Both the position numbers and the translations under genes were made by a program. This document shows, piece after piece, positions 3,563 through 22,399 of a stretch of DNA of 28,742 nt. The stretch lies in IMG/VR virus record IMGVR_UViG_3300031759_000117, positions 1 through 28,742 of that record; one strand, written 5' to 3'. Origin of the DNA: a virus. Within the stretch, counting starts at the first letter, position 1; each line of letters opens with the position of its first letter. The notes under the pieces are model-generated. The model had not been told where the DNA came from and did not search any database. It saw nothing but the letters and a program-made list of their open reading frames with translations.

Positions 3563-3925
3563 ATGGAAGTCATCTACCGCGCCTGGCTGCCCATCCGCAA
3601 CGCGGCCGTCAGGGTCGCGAACGTCGGGATCCGAATGTGGATCCACTTTTGCCGCCGCACGACGGGACGCGAGAAATGCCCCGGCTGCGGGCAGCGCAAG
3701 CAGCACAAGGTAATCTGGCGCGGGGAGTACGAGCGGCTGATCCACCAGTGCGCGTTCTGCACCGCGGTGTGGGGCACAGACCCGCTCGTCAGCGCGCAGG
3801 CCTGGCGCGTCGAGATCGTGGCGCCTCCGGAGCCCGGCCCCGAGGCGTTGCAGCGCATGCCGTTCGGCGCGTCGCGGGAACCGTCGCGCGAGCCGCTGAA
3901 ACACGAGATGCCGATTCAGAGTTAG
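3563..3925 (+). CDS. Zinc-ribbon-like protein (120 aa)
   Basis: The start codon follows the preceding TAA directly, so translation probably depends on termination of the upstream gene. The N-terminal 30 residues are basic. CPGC and CAFC, about 28 residues apart, form a likely four-Cys zinc ribbon. The C-terminus is Pro/Glu/Arg-rich and looks disordered. The family is not recognised; the fold suggests nucleic-acid or protein binding. The large reverse-strand frame across this gene is a GC-driven shadow. Confidence 0.65.
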   Translation: MEVIYRAWLPIRNAAVRVANVGIRMWIHFCRRTTGREKCPGCGQRKQHKVIWRGEYERLIHQCAFCTAVWGTDPLVSAQAWRVEIVAPPEPGPEALQRMPFGASREPSREPLKHEMPIQS

Positions 3926-3937
3926 GGAGAAAACACG

Positions 3938-4504
3938 ATGAACGAACAACAAAAGGTCGCTGGCGCTGTCGCGCTGTTGCGCGGCGAGTTGGGCAGCGAG
4001 ATCAAGGACATGATCCGCAAGAAATCGGCGGAGTTGCCGTTGACCTGGTGGGCGGAAACGGCTTTCGGCTTCACCAGCTTTCATTTCGGTCTGGGCATGG
4101 CGATCCGCAACACGCTCCGCCACTACGGATTTGACGAAGCATACTTCGGCGTTCAGACTCTCGATGGCATCTACATCAAGCTCGTGGAACTCGCATGCCA
4201 GGAGCAGGCGCCGGAACCACCGCCCCCGTCCACCTGGCAGGAAGCGCTACTGCCCGAGTGGCATCTGAAGCCCCGCCCGCTGCACGCCGCGAAGATCCTC
4301 ACCGTGCAACGGTCCACCGCGAGCCAAAGCGTAATGAAGCTCGACGCGCTCGACGACAATGGCGGCCCGCTCTACGCGGTCGGCACGCCCGGCTGGGCCG
4401 ACGTAAACAATCCGCAGCCCGGCGATTACTACGTCAGCGGCTGCCACGGCAGCGCGGTAGTGGGCCCCGAGGCATTCGAGTCGATCTATGAGCGCGCCGC
4501 ATAG
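3938..4504 (+). CDS. Conserved-looking hypothetical protein (188 aa)
   Basis: AGGGAGAA just upstream supports the ATG. The N-terminal third ends in a segment with LPLTWW and HFGLGMAIRN, which resembles a small domain seen in many bacterial and phage hypothetical proteins (a DUF6794-like look, from memory and unverified). A Pro-rich linker follows at about 90-100. The C-terminal part, containing GDYYVSGCHG and GPEAFESIY, looks like a small beta domain. It overlaps the next gene by 17 bases. No catalytic motif is visible and the function is unknown. Confidence 0.6.
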   Translation: MNEQQKVAGAVALLRGELGSEIKDMIRKKSAELPLTWWAETAFGFTSFHFGLGMAIRNTLRHYGFDEAYFGVQTLDGIYIKLVELACQEQAPEPPPPSTWQEALLPEWHLKPRPLHAAKILTVQRSTASQSVMKLDALDDNGGPLYAVGTPGWADVNNPQPGDYYVSGCHGSAVVGPEAFESIYERAA

Positions 4505-4781
4505 TTACGGCATGGTCAGCCCGCGCGCGCTTGCAAAGATGATCGCCAGCGGAACTCCGCCGCCGCCGGCAAAGAAAACATCGCCGCTGGCGCTGGGCAG
4601 TCTCCCCATCGTCCGCACCATCAACGTGACCGACGCGGTTACGGAGGCGGCGCACGAAGCGCGGCTGCGCCAGATCGCAGTGAAGCTGGCGCGCAAGCAA
4701 GGCTCTTGGATGTGCCCGAAATGCCAAGCCGTGCGAATCTCCGCGAACGCGGAAACCTGCGCCGCGTGCGCGTCGTTATGA
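4488..4781 (+). CDS. Small C-terminal zinc-ribbon-like protein (97 aa)
   Basis: The gene starts inside the end of the preceding one and ends in an ATGA overlap with the next. The N-terminal half is basic and Pro-rich, the middle is a charged helix (EAAHEARLRQIAVKLARK), and the last 25 residues hold CPKC...CAAC, a rubredoxin-knuckle-like zinc site. It may be an adaptor or nucleic-acid-binding protein. No specific family is recognised. Confidence 0.6.
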   Translation: MSAPHSYGMVSPRALAKMIASGTPPPPAKKTSPLALGSLPIVRTINVTDAVTEAAHEARLRQIAVKLARKQGSWMCPKCQAVRISANAETCAACASL

Positions 4782-4978
4782 GAGCGCAAATTGCTAAGTC
4801 CATCGCCATCGCTCGCGGATGCTACCGGCAGCCGGAGGGCGGCTCCCGGGCCGAAAAGCGCAGATGGCCATACGAGGGCGGCGGTTCGGCCGAGGGCTGG
4901 CGCGATGCCTCAATCGGTGGCCCCGCGCCCCCGCCGTTGCCGCGCAACAAGGAAAACGACAATGCTCCGATCCGATGA
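4778..4978 (+). CDS. Possible small basic protein (66 aa)
   Basis: The ATG shares the tetranucleotide ATGA with the stop of the preceding gene, an arrangement used repeatedly in this window, and the frame fills the gap to the next gene. The product is basic, Gly/Pro-rich and of low complexity with no recognisable domain, so coding status rests on coupling and position. If it is not a gene, this stretch of about 180 bases is a leader for the gene at 4962. Confidence 0.35.
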   Translation: MRAQIAKSIAIARGCYRQPEGGSRAEKRRWPYEGGGSAEGWRDASIGGPAPPPLPRNKENDNAPIR

Positions 4979-5126
4979 AGAGATCGCGCGCGAAAACGAC
5001 GCTATCGAGTACGAGGCCACCCGCGCCGCGTTGCTTCGGTTGCTCCCGGACGCCGTGTTGCTCGACCGCTTCGCGCAGTCCGTCGCGAATCGCGCTATAC
5101 GAGCCGCGGTGGACGCGAAGTGCTAG
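4962..5126 (+). CDS. Small helical protein (54 aa)
   Basis: AAGGA at 4949-4953 lies eight bases before the ATG, which decides the start against longer frames. The product is acidic then helical (LLRLLPDAVLLDRFAQ). It resembles the short helical open frames common in phage operons. Its stop overlaps the GTG start of the following HTH gene. The function is unknown. Confidence 0.5.
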   Translation: MLRSDEEIARENDAIEYEATRAALLRLLPDAVLLDRFAQSVANRAIRAAVDAKC

Positions 5127-5437
5127 GCGCGACGCTGGACAGCCCGAGCCGGAGAGCGCCGCGAACGCATGAAATCGAGGGTATCGCGCCCGTGCATCGG
5201 TTCCATCTTGCGCCGCGATTCCTTCAACTTGCCGCGCTTGCCTGCGAGGGCAACGGCTACAAAGAGATCGGAGAAGCGATGGGACTTACGGCGGGAACGG
5301 TGAAGGTGTACGGCGCGTTGGCGATGCGATCATCCGGCGCGCGCAATCGCACCCAGCTTGCGGTCTGGTACGACCGGGGCTACTTCGATCCGCCCCCCGT
5401 GGATTGTTTCCCCGGAGTAGAACTGAGCGACACTTAG
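5120..5437 (+). CDS. LuxR/GerE-type helix-turn-helix protein (105 aa)
   Basis: Residues of about 38-90 match the C-terminal DNA-binding domain of LuxR-family regulators: a helix LAALACEGNG, then YKEIGEAMGL, a turn, TAGTVKVYGAL as recognition helix, and a closing NRTQLAVW segment. There is no receiver or ligand-binding domain, so it would be a stand-alone DNA-binding protein. Translation probably starts at GTG 5120 overlapping the previous stop; GTG 5192 is an alternative that keeps the HTH. Its place ahead of the portal gene makes a late-gene regulator plausible. A small terminase subunit, which also often uses an HTH, is a weaker alternative. Confidence 0.65.
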   Translation: MLGATLDSPSRRAPRTHEIEGIAPVHRFHLAPRFLQLAALACEGNGYKEIGEAMGLTAGTVKVYGALAMRSSGARNRTQLAVWYDRGYFDPPPVDCFPGVELSDT

Positions 5438-5440
5438 ATC

Positions 5441-6163
5441 ATGGAACACACCCGCCGTTCGCTATTCGCTTCGCTTATCGCTTTGCCCGTCGCGGCTGTC
5501 GCGGCTGTGCGGGGGAAAGCCGTTTACGGTCGCAGCAGGTTCGAGCCGCCGCGCACCTCGCCCGCGTTTAAGTGCTTCAACTGTGGCACGCTCGCTACAA
5601 GCGGCTTGCTTCCGGAGGGCATCACCATACCGGGCGAGTATCGCACTCTTGGGGGAGCGATCCTCTGCGATCCGTGCATCCTAGCGCTTCGGCACTGCGC
5701 GACGTGCGGATGCGGGATCAATTTCGTGCCGCGCTGCCATCATTCACTGGAGAGCTTTAACCGGCCCCACGGCGTGCCGCGGCTGCTGCACGATGGGGAG
5801 TCGCTTCATTGGCGCTCGTGGCAGGGTCTTCCCGTCGTGACCAAGGAAGTTGTCGCGCGCACCCTCTTAATCGCGGAGGCAGACCACCAGGATCTGTGCG
5901 GCGAATACGGCGGTCGCGATCAAATCGTGGCCGACTGCCCCGGGTGCGTTTCGGCGCGCGCGCGAATAGGCGAGATCCCCGACATAACGAGGTTCGGAGA
6001 TGGCAGTCTGTATATCACGCGCAACGAAGAGCGCCACTTGATCGGCCACATTGCAGATATCACAGTTGACTCCTCGCCAACAGCTAGGATCGACTCTTCG
6101 AAGTTGCTAGCGCTTCTGGATGCCGACGAAGCGCGCATGGCCGCGTTCGGCAAGTCTCTTTAG
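5441..6163 (+). CDS. Cys-rich protein with a Tat-like leader (240 aa)
   Basis: The N-terminus has TRRSLFASL followed by an Ala/Val hydrophobic stretch to about residue 24, which resembles a twin-arginine export leader. The next 80 residues carry CFNC, CDPC, CATCGC and a CHH, suggesting two treble-clef or zinc-ribbon sites. Another CPGC lies near residue 165, and the last 60 residues are a mixed charged domain. Tat export would fit a protein that loads metal before secretion. It is the last gene before the 350-base non-coding stretch ahead of portal. The family is not recognised. Confidence 0.6.
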   Translation: MEHTRRSLFASLIALPVAAVAAVRGKAVYGRSRFEPPRTSPAFKCFNCGTLATSGLLPEGITIPGEYRTLGGAILCDPCILALRHCATCGCGINFVPRCHHSLESFNRPHGVPRLLHDGESLHWRSWQGLPVVTKEVVARTLLIAEADHQDLCGEYGGRDQIVADCPGCVSARARIGEIPDITRFGDGSLYITRNEERHLIGHIADITVDSSPTARIDSSKLLALLDADEARMAAFGKSL

Positions 6164-6512
6164 CGCTCCCAAAGTTCCCAACCGCGTGCGCAAGCCGCGA
6201 GAACGGGGGAGCGGGCGGCTGTCGCCGTTTCACCGACGGACCGCCCGCTAAAGTTTCCGTGGAGAGATAGAGCACCTGGCTCAGACCCGGGGAGTGAAGG
6301 CAGAAAATCGTATCGGGTAGGCGGGATAGCTCAAGGCCTTTTCCCGCCGCGCAACCCGATTAGCGGAAGTCCACTGACTTCATCCAAAGCACCGCGCGCC
6401 CCGCCGCTCTCTCACTATCCCGCCCAGGATCGGAGAGCGGCAGGGCGTCCAACGACGCGCATATGTCCGGAGGGTTCCGAGGCCCAGCCGGGACTTTTTC
6501 ATTTTACATCCA
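6164..6512 (+). other. Gene-free stretch with a chain of hairpins ahead of the portal gene
   Basis: No convincing frame exists on either strand. The DNA forms consecutive stem-loops: 6210-6218 with 6241-6249 (nine pairs, with an inner four-pair stem); 6312-6318 with 6354-6360 enclosing 6320-6326 with 6342-6348 (seven plus seven pairs); 6366-6371 with 6376-6381 (six pairs, loop CACT); and 6403-6411 with 6433-6441 (nine pairs, extended by 6398-6401 with 6443-6446 past one mismatch). It could be a structured leader, a non-coding RNA, or a DNA site such as a packaging signal. Confidence 0.6.
6210..6249 (+). terminator. Possible terminator-like stem after the early gene cluster
   Basis: A perfect nine-pair GC-rich stem starts 47 bases after the preceding stop codon, with an inner GTCG/CGAC stem. 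Only AAAGTTT follows, not a proper T tract, so intrinsic termination is weak. It may instead be the first element of the structured region. Confidence 0.35.
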
Positions 6513-8057
6513 GTGGCTAAAGGCCAGTCCGATTTCTTCGGCAACACCCAAGCCGGAGGCGGCAAAAAGACACGTCTCCTACCGCTTAACGCCATCGCTC
6601 CATCGACTGTAAACGGCATCAAGGATATCTCGTCGGACTACTGGTTCGGCCCGCTCCAGCCTACGAAGGTAATCGCGCCATCGTCTTACCGGCCGCGCCA
6701 GTACGGGTATACACCCGGCGCGAATATGTCGTGGACCCCGAAGGGGGAAGACACTCCGATCACGTTCGATATCCTCCGCGCGCTGGCCGACCAGTGGGAC
6801 ATTCTCCGAATCGCGATCGACATCAAAAAAGACCAAATCGTCGGCGTGCCCTTCGAGCTGCGTCCCATCCGCCAGCCGGGCGAGATGGTTACCGATTTCA
6901 AGGCGCGCACAGCCGGTGACAAGACGCTCCGCGATCTCACCGCGTTCTGGAAAAAGCCGGACGGCCATCACCCGTGGAAACAGTGGCTCCACCTTTGGCT
7001 TGAGGATCTGATCGTGCTCGACGCCGTCGCGCTGTGGATGTCGCGCGATAAGCAGGGGAAGGTGGCCACCGTCCACCCGCTGGCGGGCGACACCATCGGG
7101 CGCATGCTCACGGATCAAGGCTTCACGCCGCCGCCCGGGTCGACCGCGTACCAGCAGGTCGTATACGGCATGCCGTGCTGGGACTTCGACGTCACCGACC
7201 TCGTGTACGGAATGCAGAACGAGCGCACCAACCGGCGCTACGGCTTCTCCAAGGTCGAGGGAATCATCAACACGGTTTGTTTCGGCTTGCGCCGCCAGGA
7301 GTGGCAAATCTCGGAGTATACATCCGGCACGGTGCCCGAAGCGCTCGTGTTTCTGCCCGCGGATTTGCCGGTCAATCGCGTAAAGGAAGTCCAGGACTGG
7401 TTCGATTCGATCCTCGCCGGCGACCTCGGAATGCGCCGCCGCGTGCGCTTCCTCCCCGGTATGGGCTCGGGCGAGAACGCGCGTCCGAACGTGATCTTTC
7501 CGAAAGAGCCGCTGCTTAAAGACGAGCTGGACGTGTGGCTCGCCCAGGTCGTTTGCGCGCACATCGGAATCAGTGCTCAGAAGTTTCTGAAGATGGCGAA
7601 CCGCGCCAGCGCGGAAGAGGCGAACGACGCGGCCGCGCAGGAAGGCCTGAAGCCCGACGTAGATTTTGTCATCGACGAGCTGAACGAGTGCCTATCGCGC
7701 ATGGGCATGGCCAACGACTACGAGTGGGCCAGCCAGACGCACCGCGATGTGGATCCGCTCAAGGCGGCGCAAGCGGACAATCTGATTGTCGGCAAGATCG
7801 TAACCGTTAACGAGTCCCGCGAGGACCGCGGGCGCGATCCGCGTCCGGAGCCGGAGGCCGACCAGCTCGGCTCGTACTCGCCACAGTTTGGCTTCCTGCC
7901 GCTTGGTCAGCTCCCCCCGACCATGCAGGCGGGCGGACCCGCCGGCGGCGAGACGGGCGAAGACGGCAAGCCGAAAACGCCGGCCGCAGGCGCTGGCAAA
8001 GATCCCGCAGGCGACGAGCCGCCCCAAAAAAAAAAGCCGGTAAAGCTGCTCTACTGA
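6513..8057 (+). CDS. Phage portal protein (514 aa)
   Basis: The portal is the twelve-subunit ring at the capsid vertex through which DNA enters and to which the tail joins. Residues of about 85-130 (ILRALADQWDILRIAID, then KDQIVGVPFEL) match the N-terminal core of the portal superfamily, and the length of about 500 residues is typical. The central part holds wing and stem regions; the C-terminal 60 residues are Gly/Pro/Lys-rich and flexible. Translation starts at GTG 6513 without a clear ribosome site. The neighbouring minor head, protease and capsid genes confirm the role. The last codons include an A10 run with an A AAA AAG slippery heptamer in frame, and the -1 frame there is open into the minor head gene. 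Confidence 0.92.
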   Translation: MAKGQSDFFGNTQAGGGKKTRLLPLNAIAPSTVNGIKDISSDYWFGPLQPTKVIAPSSYRPRQYGYTPGANMSWTPKGEDTPITFDILRALADQWDILRIAIDIKKDQIVGVPFELRPIRQPGEMVTDFKARTAGDKTLRDLTAFWKKPDGHHPWKQWLHLWLEDLIVLDAVALWMSRDKQGKVATVHPLAGDTIGRMLTDQGFTPPPGSTAYQQVVYGMPCWDFDVTDLVYGMQNERTNRRYGFSKVEGIINTVCFGLRRQEWQISEYTSGTVPEALVFLPADLPVNRVKEVQDWFDSILAGDLGMRRRVRFLPGMGSGENARPNVIFPKEPLLKDELDVWLAQVVCAHIGISAQKFLKMANRASAEEANDAAAQEGLKPDVDFVIDELNECLSRMGMANDYEWASQTHRDVDPLKAAQADNLIVGKIVTVNESREDRGRDPRPEPEADQLGSYSPQFGFLPLGQLPPTMQAGGPAGGETGEDGKPKTPAAGAGKDPAGDEPPQKKKPVKLLY

Positions 8058-8083
8058 AGGCCGCGCTAACCCGCGCCGAGGCC
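8026..8083 (+). promoter_or_regulatory. A10 slippery run, candidate -1 frameshift site joining portal to minor head protein
   Basis: Ten A residues at 8026-8035 are followed by G. Read in the portal frame this includes A AAA AAG at 8030-8036, the type of heptamer used by E. coli dnaX. A -1 shift (or an added A in the transcript) enters the frame of the minor head gene, which has no stop from before 7922 through 8171. A weak stem, 8059-8066 with 8073-8083, lies downstream but farther away than usual. Transcriptional slippage on A10 would give the same product. Confidence 0.55.
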
Positions 8084-8170
8084 GAGCCGCGCATCGCCGC
8101 GACGGTCCACAAGTTCCTGCAGGCCACCGCCGCCGACCTGGCCGGCCGGCTCCGCAAGCACATTGCAAAG

Positions 8171-8821
8171 ATGCGCAAGGCGGGAAGCGACCAGGACGCG
8201 ATCGACAAGCTGCTGGACCCGATCGACTGGACCGGTTTGCCCGACCAGCTCCAGCCGGATCTCGACGCGATCGCGCGCGCCGCGATTCTCGACGCGCTGA
8301 AGTCGATCGAGGAAAGCATCACCGCGTCTCCGGACATGATCTCGGCCGCCAACACGGTCGCCGGCGACTGGGCACACGCCCGCGCCGCCGAAATGGTCGG
8401 GATGCACTGGACCGCGGACGGCGTGCTCGCGGAAAACCCGAGCGCGCACTGGGCGATCAGCGAAACGACGCGCGAGAACGTTCGCGAACTGGTAGCCGAA
8501 GCGTTCGCGCAAGAGACGCCGCTATCGACGCTGGCCACCAGTATCGAAGAGTCCGCCACGTTCGGCGAATCGCGCGCCGCCATGATCGCGAAGACGGAGT
8601 CCGCGTTCGCCGCGAACCAGGGGAACCTTGCGGGGTGGGTGCAATCGGGCGTGGTGCCCGAAGTCGCCGTGCTGTTGAGCGGCGATCACGTCGGCCCCGA
8701 CGAATGCGACGAGCTGGCGGAGGACGGGCCTTACAAGATTGGCGAGGCTCCTATTCTACCGGCGCATCCTCGCTGCGAGTGCCGCTACAAACCGATTTTG
8801 ACAAAGAAGACCAAAACATGA
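8171..8821 (+). CDS. Mu gpF-like minor head protein (216 aa from the first ATG, probably longer)
   Basis: Residues of about 95-205 carry the Mu gpF/SPP1 gp7 fold: TTRENVRELVAEAF, ESRAAMIAKTES, then the diagnostic C-terminal HPRCECRYKP motif. Members are minor capsid proteins bound near the portal and act in head assembly or early ejection. The first usual start is ATG 8171, but the 38 codons before it are clearly coding-like (TRAEAEPRIAATVHKFL). No ATG, GTG or TTG precedes it in frame back to 7922; only CTG 8054 overlaps the portal stop. The true N-terminus therefore comes from CTG 8054 or, more interestingly, from frameshifting out of portal. The stop overlaps the next gene as ATGA. Confidence 0.88.
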   Translation: MRKAGSDQDAIDKLLDPIDWTGLPDQLQPDLDAIARAAILDALKSIEESITASPDMISAANTVAGDWAHARAAEMVGMHWTADGVLAENPSAHWAISETTRENVRELVAEAFAQETPLSTLATSIEESATFGESRAAMIAKTESAFAANQGNLAGWVQSGVVPEVAVLLSGDHVGPDECDELAEDGPYKIGEAPILPAHPRCECRYKPILTKKTKT

Positions 8822-9714: not shown

Positions 9715-10046
9715 CGGACACCATGGACCTTATCGAACGGCTACGCAAACTTGGAGAACTGGCCGGGGGCGATGGCCGCGCCAGCCTGCAACTGCACGTG
9801 AACGTCAAGCAGCAGGAACACTACGACCAGATTTCGCTGTTCGTGAGCCTTCCGAACGGATGCAATATCAGCGAGAGCCGCAACGGCCGCACACTCGAAG
9901 GGGTGTTTGAAACGGTCGAGGCCAAATTAACGAAAAGCGCTCTCGTGAAAGCCGTCGAAGACCTGCGGGATCACGCCAAGGCCCTCGATTCCGAAGCCGG
10001 CCGCGTGCTGTCGGAAATGCAAAAAAAACTCGGAAATCAGGCGTAA
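9711..10046 (+). CDS. Hypothetical protein, charged and helical (111 aa)
   Basis: AAGGAA at 9698-9703 and the ATGA overlap at 9711 fix the start. The N-terminal helix (MDLIERLRKLGELAGG) leads to a strand-rich centre with LQLHVNVKQQEHYDQISL, then a long C-terminal helix (ALVKAVEDLRDHAKALDSEA) that may form a coiled coil. It lies between the minor head and protease genes. It does not match any virion family I recognise. Confidence 0.6.
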   Translation: MTDTMDLIERLRKLGELAGGDGRASLQLHVNVKQQEHYDQISLFVSLPNGCNISESRNGRTLEGVFETVEAKLTKSALVKAVEDLRDHAKALDSEAGRVLSEMQKKLGNQA

Positions 10047-15701: not shown

Positions 15702-16847
15702 TTGAAATTTATTTTCTATTCGCCGGACTTCGGCCCCGCGTGGGACTATACGTCGGTCGAGCATGGCCTCGGCGGATCCGAAACGTACCACGTCGAAATG
15801 GCGTTGCGGCTTGCCGCGCGCGGGCACGAAGTCGATAGTTACAACAATCTGGCGGGCGCTGCGTGCGTGCGCGGCGGCGTCCACTGGCGCGATCTGCACA
15901 GCCTCCGCACGATTACGCCGTACGGGGAGCACAAGGGCACGTGGATCATTCAGCGCCAGCCCGAGTTCATCGACCGGCTTGCGTACGACCACCTCCTGGA
16001 TGGTGCGGCGCAGCAAAGGTTCTGGCACGTCTACCACGACGTGGACTACCCCACGGCCACGCTGGAGCGCATGGCGCGGTACGACCGCCTAATCGCGCTG
16101 TCGCCGTTCCACGCGGAGTATCTGCGCAACCAGGAGCACCGCAACGTCTCGGTAGGGCAATCTGGGATCGCGAGTGACCGCATGGAGGCGTTGCCGCACA
16201 GCGATAGCATACGCAACCCCAGACGCCTGATCTATTCGAGCACACCCGATCGCGGCCTGGAGCATCTCCTTAAATCGTTCGCCCGCGCGCGCGAGCAGGT
16301 CGAGGATCTGGAGCTGCACTGCTTTTACGGCTGGGAAGGCTTCGACGCGCGGATCGCCCGCGACGTGACCGGCGAGTGCGCCCGTCAGAAGGCCGCGATT
16401 GTCGAGGGGCTGAAGCAACCCGGCGTTACATGGCACGGGCGCGTCGGCCAGACCGAGCTATGGCGCGAGTTTCTCAAGTCGGGGATCTGGTGCTACCAGA
16501 CCGAGTTCTTCGAGACCGCGTGCATCACCGCGATGGAAGCGCAGGCGCTCGGCGCGGTTCCGATCTTCAATCCGCTCTGGGCATTGCAGGATAACGTGTT
16601 CGCGGGCATCTCCATCGAAGGCGACTGCTGGCGCGACCGCCTGGTCAAAGCGCGCTTCGCTTACGAGATCGTGAAGCTGGCCAGATCTCCGGAAGCGCAG
16701 GAAAACATGCGCGCGGAAATGATGCCCATCGCGCGGGAACGATTCTCGTGGGATCGGGCTTGCGAGCAGTTTGAGGCTATGGCGGCTGAGGATCTGGGGG
16801 AACGCGTTTCGGAGAAACCACAGATAGACACGGATGAACACAGATAA
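15702..16847 (+). CDS. GT4-type (GT-B fold) glycosyltransferase (381 aa)
   Basis: The enzyme would move a sugar from a nucleotide sugar to an acceptor in the cytoplasm. The N-terminal Rossmann half has GLGGSE at 22-27 and the usual LAARGHEV. The C-terminal half has YSSTPDRGLEHLL (178-190) and the EX7E motif at Glu271/Glu279, typical of retaining GT4 enzymes. TTG 15702 is the start, with GGGAGGG at 15691-15697 upstream. The last residues (QIDTDEHR) are encoded by a decamer repeat that seems to have run over the original end. Its place after the capsid cluster, paired with a second glycosyltransferase, suggests glycosylation of virion proteins, but surface-polysaccharide modification in the host is also possible. 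Confidence 0.85.
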   Translation: MKFIFYSPDFGPAWDYTSVEHGLGGSETYHVEMALRLAARGHEVDSYNNLAGAACVRGGVHWRDLHSLRTITPYGEHKGTWIIQRQPEFIDRLAYDHLLDGAAQQRFWHVYHDVDYPTATLERMARYDRLIALSPFHAEYLRNQEHRNVSVGQSGIASDRMEALPHSDSIRNPRRLIYSSTPDRGLEHLLKSFARAREQVEDLELHCFYGWEGFDARIARDVTGECARQKAAIVEGLKQPGVTWHGRVGQTELWREFLKSGIWCYQTEFFETACITAMEAQALGAVPIFNPLWALQDNVFAGISIEGDCWRDRLVKARFAYEIVKLARSPEAQENMRAEMMPIARERFSWDRACEQFEAMAAEDLGERVSEKPQIDTDEHR

Positions 16848-16848: not shown

Positions 16849-17075
16849 CGCTGGCGTCCGGGTTAGGTCCCCGGTAGAGCTGACTCCAGCGGCCACGGAC
16901 GCAATCCTAAACCGCCTTCTGTCCCATGTCCTGCCACAGGCATTGGGGGAGCTACTGTGGCCGATGCCCGGCCTACTACTTTTGGGAAGGCTCCCCGCCT
17001 ATCCCATTTCGCAGCCCGCTCGATCCGTCGAGTCCGACGCCAGCGCATCCCAGTATAAGAGTTGAGGGAGAGAAA

Positions 17076-17771
17076 ATGCAACCAATCAGGCGCAAGTGCC
17101 TCGGCACCATCGCGTATATCGGCGTGGGCAACGTGCCCGAGGCGTTCACCTGGTCGATGATCCAGCTCGTACAATTCTGCAACGAGTACGTGTGCGAGCC
17201 GGGCGAGTGGATCCACTTCGACCACGCCGTGAAATCGGGCCAGGTCATGCAGCGGAACATCCTCGCGCAGCGCATGCTGGGCGACTGGATTCTGTACATC
17301 GACTCCGACCACGATTTCGAGCCGGACCTGGCGTACCGCCTGCTCTCGATCTTCGTGGCGCGGCGGCTCGACGTGCTGTCCGCCTTTTACCAGTTTAAAG
17401 AGTACCCGCACCAGCCGATGGCGTGGATGTATCTCAAGGACAAAGAGGGCTATGCGCAAATCGCGAATTGGGATCGCAACCTCACATTGATGAAGACGCA
17501 GGCGACCGGCGCGGGGTGCGTGCTGATCCGGCGCAGCGTGATCGAGCGCTTGGTCACGCACTACGGGGCCGCGCCGTTCGATCCGATCGGCAAGTACTCG
17601 ACGGACGATTTCGACTTCTTCGAACGGTGTAGGCTAGTGGGTATAGAGTGCTGGTGGGCACCGAAGATAGAGTGCCCGCATCTTATGACGCGCGCACTGA
17701 CGGCAGCCGATTACGATCTGGAGTACGTGATGGCGCAGTCGCAACAGGATTTGCAGAAGGTGGCGGCGTGA
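17076..17771 (+). CDS. GT-A-type glycosyltransferase, family 2-like (231 aa)
   Basis: GAGGGAG at 17064-17070 fixes ATG 17076. The key feature is WILYIDSDHDF, with DSD at residues 76-78 as the metal and nucleotide-sugar-binding DXD motif, preceded by an Arg/Asn-rich helix (VMQRNILAQRMLGD). Later segments (GAGCVLIRRSVIERL, then DDFDFFERC and CPHLMTRA) match the acceptor side and a metal-binding His of small GT2-like enzymes found in phages. An in-frame extension back to ATG 16926 encodes a Cys/His cluster (SCHRHWGSYCGRCP) and could be a longer 281-residue form. Otherwise the gap 16848-17075 shows nothing certain. It overlaps the next gene as GTGA. Confidence 0.8.
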   Translation: MQPIRRKCLGTIAYIGVGNVPEAFTWSMIQLVQFCNEYVCEPGEWIHFDHAVKSGQVMQRNILAQRMLGDWILYIDSDHDFEPDLAYRLLSIFVARRLDVLSAFYQFKEYPHQPMAWMYLKDKEGYAQIANWDRNLTLMKTQATGAGCVLIRRSVIERLVTHYGAAPFDPIGKYSTDDFDFFERCRLVGIECWWAPKIECPHLMTRALTAADYDLEYVMAQSQQDLQKVAA

Positions 17772-21924: not shown

Positions 21925-21989
21925 GGAAGACAGCGCCGCTTTGTTTCAGTGAGCAGCACCGGGACACTAAGCCGGGATGTTTGTCACGT

Positions 21990-22006
21990 GCCGAAGTCTC
22001 TTCGGC
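21990..22006 (+). promoter_or_regulatory. Small hairpin before the tail chaperone
   Basis: Seven pairs (21990-21996 with 22000-22006) with a TCT loop lie 66 bases after the tube gene. No T run follows. It may lower expression from the abundant tube message into the chaperone gene. Confidence 0.4.
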
Positions 22007-22054
22007 CACCATACGCGGCGCTTCGATTCCAACATACCAAAACAGGGAGTGATC

Positions 22055-22399
22055 ATGCGGAGACGCAAACAAGTAGAGATGGACGGGGCGAGGTTCACGA
22101 TCTCGCCCTTGACGCTGGAGCAGGTAGGCGTGCTTGGCGACGACGGCGAAGTGCGCCCCGTTCCAAAGTCCGTATACGAGACGGTGGTCGACGGGCTGAA
22201 TAACGGGCAACTGGCGATCGCTGAGGATCTTTGCGGCGCCGGATTGACGGCAGTCCCATGGACGGTCCAACGCGTCAAGAGCGAGATGGATCTTCTGCTC
22301 TGGAAATTTCTCCACGCCGAAATCCTGGACTTCTCAGGATTGAAAATCGAGGCCAAATCCGCGGGGGAAACCGAGGCTCCGGCTCCCGTGGCTCCGTAG
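22055..22399 (+). CDS. Tail assembly chaperone, short form, lambda G-like (114 aa)
   Basis: The protein resembles the G-type chaperones that hold the tape measure during tail assembly: a strand start (FTISPLTLEQVGVL), a central helix and EMDLLLWKFLHAEILDFSG near the end. CAGGGAG at 22043-22049 marks the start. Near the 3' end a G5A3 run allows a -1 shift into the following frame, which has no start of its own at the right place. This is the standard G/GT arrangement. Confidence 0.75.
   Translation: MRRRKQVEMDGARFTISPLTLEQVGVLGDDGEVRPVPKSVYETVVDGLNNGQLAIAEDLCGAGLTAVPWTVQRVKSEMDLLLWKFLHAEILDFSGLKIEAKSAGETEAPAPVAP

Follow-up and report, generated by a model that had tools for sequence, protein, structure and literature searches.

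The portal gene of viral-contig record IMGVR_UViG_3300031759_000117 (28,742 bases, analysed at full length and referred to here as the window) ends close to a run of ten A's, and a MuF-like head domain follows in the −1 frame. How is this domain expressed, when the first usual start codon of its frame is found only at 8171? Comparison with relatives suggests that the run, which is conserved at the portal-MuF hinge, is probably a programmed slippage element; polymerase slippage there would yield both a plain portal and a portal-MuF fusion.

Portal and head-domain frames in the window

The features of the locus are listed below.

6513..8057, + strand: portal protein gene (514 aa, default product) with GTG start and TGA stop at 8055-8057; PHROG 2662, Pfam Phage_portal
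8026..8035, + strand: A10, the putative slippage run at the portal-MuF hinge, read from the sequence; A AAA AAG in the portal frame
8036..8821, + strand: MuF-like head domain in the −1 frame, 261 codons after the run, with its stop at 8819-8821; predicted C-terminal part of a fusion of ~770 aa
8041..8043, + strand: TAA in the third (+1) frame, directly 3' of the run, read from the sequence; a slip in the opposite direction would also give plain portal
8054..8057, + strand: CTGA, the portal stop overlapping a CTG in the MuF frame; a possible but weak non-standard start
8171..8173, + strand: ATG, the first ATG, GTG or TTG in the MuF frame, at residue 46 of the post-run domain

The portal codons at the run read ...CCC CAA AAA AAA AAG CCG GTA AAG CTG CTC TAC TGA, and the initial annotation was correct in placing A AAA AAG inside A10 in the portal frame. 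It had also described a −1 frame that is open into the head protein and has no usual start before 8171, and both statements were borne out; no stop interrupts the frame between 7811 and 8819-8821, where it ends. Portal and −1 frame read across the run give a 769-aa protein, and a slip on A10 is needed to connect the two frames. In the frames that do not lead to MuF, stops were found at 8041 (TAA) and 8055 (TGA). When A, C, G and T were checked, A10 was the only homopolymer of at least 9 nt in the window, the runner-up being an A8 at 10021. Two almost identical assemblies, 3300032677_000072 and 3300032605_002143, also have A10, and thus three assemblies agree.

The portal ORF matched the PHROG 2662 portal over residues 57-488 (E 9.6e-46) and Pfam Phage_portal with 38.3 bits, slightly below the cut-off of 39.1; relatives of the portal were 50-62% identical to it. 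The MuF frame matched PHROG families of head morphogenesis and minor head proteins, with a sub-threshold match to Pfam Phage_Mu_F. Because the PHROG 2662 profile spans both reading frames (positions 28-446 correspond to the portal ORF and 473-653 to the MuF frame), a portal-MuF fusion is the norm of the family, and PHROG 2662 relatives were mostly single fusions of about 750-800 aa.

An AlphaFold model of the 261 post-run residues had pLDDT 89; in it, the first eight residues are disordered and a confident helix occupies residues 13-45 (pLDDT about 91-98 over most of its length). Since ATG 8171 is residue 46, a start there would be predicted to remove this conserved long helix. The claim that the stretch of the −1 frame before 8171 is coding-like therefore stood, as the stretch aligns with fused relatives and is predicted to form the ordered helix. 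Against a viral fold library, the model matched head morphogenesis proteins and a portal protein/fusion of 817 aa; Foldseek of the model against the PDB gave no significant match.

Conservation of the run among relatives

Relatives were surveyed with two alignment searches, and the loci obtained were mostly uncultured contigs. Both domains were present in 117 loci, 71 of them single fused ORFs and 38 with MuF in −1. Clustering at 80% portal identity gave 67 clusters, of which the 60 with the fused or the −1 arrangement were kept. PHROG 2662 portals of one bacterial order were left uncounted; these were mostly too distant and had no adjacent MuF match. Genomes added from one phylum and one class contributed few new members and zero runs.

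The comparison of relatives for split or fused genes that had been proposed with the initial annotation gave mostly fused genes, and some split ones with an ordinary start. Single fused ORFs include L004, L009 (Brevundimonas phage Polewnik), L010 (THSA-485A), L011 (Sonali), L021 and L025, and the record of Sonali is annotated as a portal and MuF-like fusion. The first distant relatives with a displaced MuF frame were L022, L023 and L024 (29-33% identical), all in −1 and all with A9 or A10 at the hinge. In L023, a Nitrosomonadales prophage (6308-7084), an in-frame stop lies about 90 codons after the run in the MuF frame, and that gene may be decayed. The −1 loci without a run use an ordinary start that lies at the portal stop or beyond it (L015, L121, L161/L068, L069, L155 and L222): a GTG overlapping the stop in L015/L016, an overlapping start in L121 and L161/L068, and an ATG 5 nt on in L069. 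A normal start for the head protein in relatives had been named in advance as evidence against the fusion; it was found only in run-less members of the clade, L015 and L069.

A9 or A10 was present at the hinge in 23 of the 60 clusters, a fraction that is not an unbiased prevalence because the seeds included run-bearing phages; the other 37 had no such run. MuF is in −1 in 10 run-bearing clusters (default plain portal) and in frame in 13 (default fusion). The observation made at the window thus held there and had to be corrected for the family, many relatives bearing the run with MuF already in frame. One locus with A9, L178, was excluded from the run-bearing clusters because its MuF is displaced and in another frame. 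Among the cultured phages that were found, only the Thermoanaerobacterium phage THSA-485A (L010) has the run, an A9 at the hinge of its fused portal-MuF gene (3815-6184). That gene is AT-rich, so that its A9 is weak evidence alone; it would still make a practical test case.

Runs of at least nine A or T (A9+/T9+) numbered 23 in the 240-nt hinge segments versus 1 in the other 374,861 nt of these loci, so that 23 of the 24 such runs in about 389 kb (60 clusters) sit at the hinge; this is conservation at the nucleotide level, as expected of slippage elements. The Poisson probability of this difference (P 1e-55) is indicative only, as clusters are related and the segments of run-bearing loci were centred on the run. 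The longest A-run at the hinge was bimodal in length, with either 7 or fewer or 9-10, no 8 and none above 10, and no run of C, G or T of at least 8 was found in the surveyed portal and MuF genes. Outside the run, 36% of lysine codons were AAA (pooled). The run is retained in genes where AAA is rare among lysine codons (1 of 34 in L030, 3 of 47 in L211 and 3 of 49 in L223), and therefore lysines alone do not account for it. Its length was identical among the members of every cluster, including the L211/L213 pairs, which are 12-15% apart. The A10 at the portal-MuF hinge is not due to chance.

Of the three frames downstream of the run, one continues into MuF; the remaining two reach stops early, beyond expectation from the same genes (Fisher P 9e-7, computed on a set of 24 that still included L178, which opposes the trend). 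Defined products would thus be set by the sequence, with MuF in one frame and early stops in two. In the L126-L221 group, the nucleotide differences found from the portal stop up to the first possible MuF start were distributed 121/124/259 by MuF codon position, and those within the overlap itself 56/55/110, the counts being pairwise and not independent. Constraint in this group acts on the MuF frame, starting at the run.

On a tree of 61 portals, presence of the run requires at least 10 changes of state, 8 of them forced by starred branches, and the frame among run-bearing rows requires at least 3. Gain and loss of the run are indistinguishable on this tree. The window lies in a starred clade of eight as the sole run-bearer, the others being fused or conventionally split; a scan of this closest clade for a second run-bearing member found none. 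As the nearest relatives and 37 of 60 clusters do not have the run, the element is not essential.

Candidate mechanism and alternatives

The claim that one gene yields a plain portal and a fusion of ~770 residues is supported at the sequence level by the fused relatives, the missing usual start for MuF, a MuF frame that is under constraint as soon as the run ends, and the family-wide recurrence of the run at the hinge. RNA polymerase would slip on the run and produce mRNAs with a varying number of A's. In the window, exact copies (A10) would encode the 514-aa portal, and A11, or two A fewer, would bring MuF into frame and give the portal-MuF fusion of ~770 aa; other run lengths would end at TAA 8041-8043 and again give plain portal. 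Where relatives have MuF in frame in the DNA, the same run would work in reverse, and slippage would give plain portal. Rings assembled from both forms would hold covalently attached MuF domains in limited number. We consider it rather likely that the A9/A10 run acts as a family-wide switch by which polymerase slippage determines how much plain portal enters the ring relative to portal-MuF, the default frame having shifted back and forth while the run was kept, with selection for both products.

How the slip takes place had been put down, in the initial annotation, to −1 recoding at A AAA AAG. In programmed −1 ribosomal frameshifting of the E. coli dnaX or IS3 type, a tandem slip on this heptamer would lead into MuF and yield the same 769-aa protein. 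A AAA AAN (A AAA AAG or A AAA AAA) is present in the portal frame of every run-bearing gene of the −1 set, the commonest context is CAA AAA AAA AAG, and recoding is frequent in phage structural genes (SPP1 17.1 and 17.5, PMC6316719). Every run of 9-10 A also includes A AAA AAA or A AAA AAG in frame, so that ribosomes may slip on any of them. Among −1 hinges that lack an ordinary start, a bare A6G or A7 is never seen; all have 9-10 A. Selection for a heptamer leaves unexplained this length without shorter runs, the varying phase and downstream base, and the presence of the run in genes that are already fused in frame. No consistent SD-like element was seen at the run in the run-bearing hinges, and no downstream structure of the kind that stimulates frameshifting was found at the 23 hinges (mean z +0.03, with 1 of 23 below −2). 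With a bare A6G never found, a variable phase and no stimulator, ribosomal frameshifting is not favoured and we regard it as unlikely, but ribosomal slipping may contribute to the yield of fusion. Polymerase slippage has been tied to homopolymers of at least 8, with 9 A or T in known cases (PMC3711429, PMC5009743); the window has A10, and the 23 clusters have only A9 or A10. The length of 9-10 A, the indifference to phase and default frame, the near stops and the lack of stimulators are features that polymerase slippage would account for, and by these patterns it is the most likely mechanism.

Three further explanations dispense with slippage of either kind. MuF could be a separate gene, its translation coupled at the portal stop from CTG (CTGA, 8054) or begun at ATG 8171. 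Close relatives do start MuF separately (L015/L016, L121, L161/L068 and L069), and TTGA stands at the portal stop in two further run-bearing clusters, L184 and L030. In the window sequence no SD was seen before CTGA 8054 or ATG 8171, a start at the latter would lose the confidently predicted helix of residues 13-45, and conservation of the −1 frame begins at the run, upstream of any start. As a separate gene would explain neither the run nor its occurrence in fused genes, independent initiation appears very unlikely. Homopolymers are error-prone and fused relatives exist, and the initial annotation had allowed for a miscounted A (true A11, one fused ORF); an error of sequencing or assembly, or decay of the gene, is nevertheless scarcely credible, since A10 was found in three assemblies, run length is constant within lineages, the arrangement is repeated in 10 clusters (several of them represented by more than one assembly, all with the same run length) and in-frame members also have the run. 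Long homopolymers are classic contingency loci, and both frames are found in the family, as would be expected if changes in the genomic length of the run toggled the MuF domain. Such phase variation at the DNA level is highly improbable given the uniform run length of each cluster, even between L211 and L213 at 12-15% apart, and the only 3 changes of frame that the tree requires of run-bearing genes.

Relation to known systems and other features of the loci

The portal ring starts head assembly, packages DNA and ejects DNA. To our knowledge, purposeful transcriptional slippage is known from few genes, none of them a portal gene. In work by Xu, Hendrix and Duda from 2004, a programmed −1 frameshift is reportedly described in phage tail assembly chaperones (lambda G/GT). 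That system resembles the present one in being a phage structural gene with a short and an extended form made from one start; it differs in that the genes here encode portal and MuF, in the long A-run here versus a varied heptamer there, and in that here the extension is a head protein which elsewhere is a separate gene or a plain fusion.

The dnaX gene of Thermus thermophilus undergoes transcriptional slippage on 9 A/T, and each of its two remaining frames soon reaches a stop (PMC5009743). Like that gene, whose products are tau and gamma, the hinge combines an A/T run (9 there, 9-10 A here) lying within one ORF with closely following stops and with an N-terminus common to two products, which are predicted here. 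The two systems differ in gene and function; at the hinge, some phages have a fused default product and others an unfused one, and occurrences of the element are spread across a large phage family. Portal-MuF fusions have been described as gene 3 of Arthrobacter phage Sonali and in Microbacterium clusters EA and EB (PMC7302621). The window is a PHROG 2662 member and has the same domain order as the fusions of that family; the annotated ones are constitutive, and that of the window appears from its sequence to be conditional on slippage. In SPP1, a few copies of gp7, a MuF protein, enter the head with the gp6 portal, and of the virions that lack gp7 only about 25% are infectious (PMC6316719). 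If a mixed ring forms, the window would be like SPP1 in having the MuF domain in few copies at the portal; unlike here, SPP1 uses separate genes and non-covalent binding. On this analogy, the likely purpose of the dual output is a portal ring with some MuF domains.

Taken singly, A-run slippage, portal-MuF fusions and the recoding of phage tail genes have precedents (PMC5009743, PMC6316719, PMC7302621). Searches of the open-access literature for recoding at the portal or at MuF brought up no earlier report and none that links these three, and portals are absent from the main text of a genome-wide survey of frameshifting (PMC3711429). If slippage is confirmed, it would account for the way in which phages with fused portal-MuF genes escape having twelve MuF domains per ring, with a stoichiometry that can be tested, and the hinges would form a family of natural slippage sites with both frame settings. 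For annotation, MuF has no normal start ahead of it in 10 clusters and would be miscalled or truncated there; in 13 clusters the second product would be invisible. MuF and portal bear injected effectors in other phages (PMC5512222), and the hinge may govern the number of cargo copies that enter the head.

Other sequences were observed at or near the hinge. The portal gene of L019 (1796-6844; also L008) contains an in-frame intein-like insert of about 400 aa, which starts CYMEGTEVLTRNGWKIFDDV and ends WCGNS, and in L255 and L256 the portal match is in two pieces in one frame, possibly intein-like as well. The hinge hosts a 2H-phosphoesterase-like domain in L019, and the same domain lies upstream of MuF in L155 (2402-3601); 2H domains fused to MuF or portal have been described (PMC5512222). 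L017/L018 have other C-terminal domains with a DGHHRWAA motif at the hinge, and L068 is also among the loci with other domains there. In L155, L068, L237, L178 and L193, the MuF core does not adjoin the portal; it is found 1-2 kb further downstream, past other sequence. Rfam gave no intron or motif in L155, L068, L178 and L193, where MuF is displaced, and no match in the window.

Elsewhere in the window, an overlapping pair (21977-22399 and a −1 frame to 22737) occupies the G/GT tail chaperone position; no standard slippery heptamer was found in the first frame of this pair. Two glycosyltransferase-like genes, 15702-16847 (Pfam Glyco_transf_4/Glycos_transf_1) and 16926-17771 (Glycos_transf_2), lie within the structural module.
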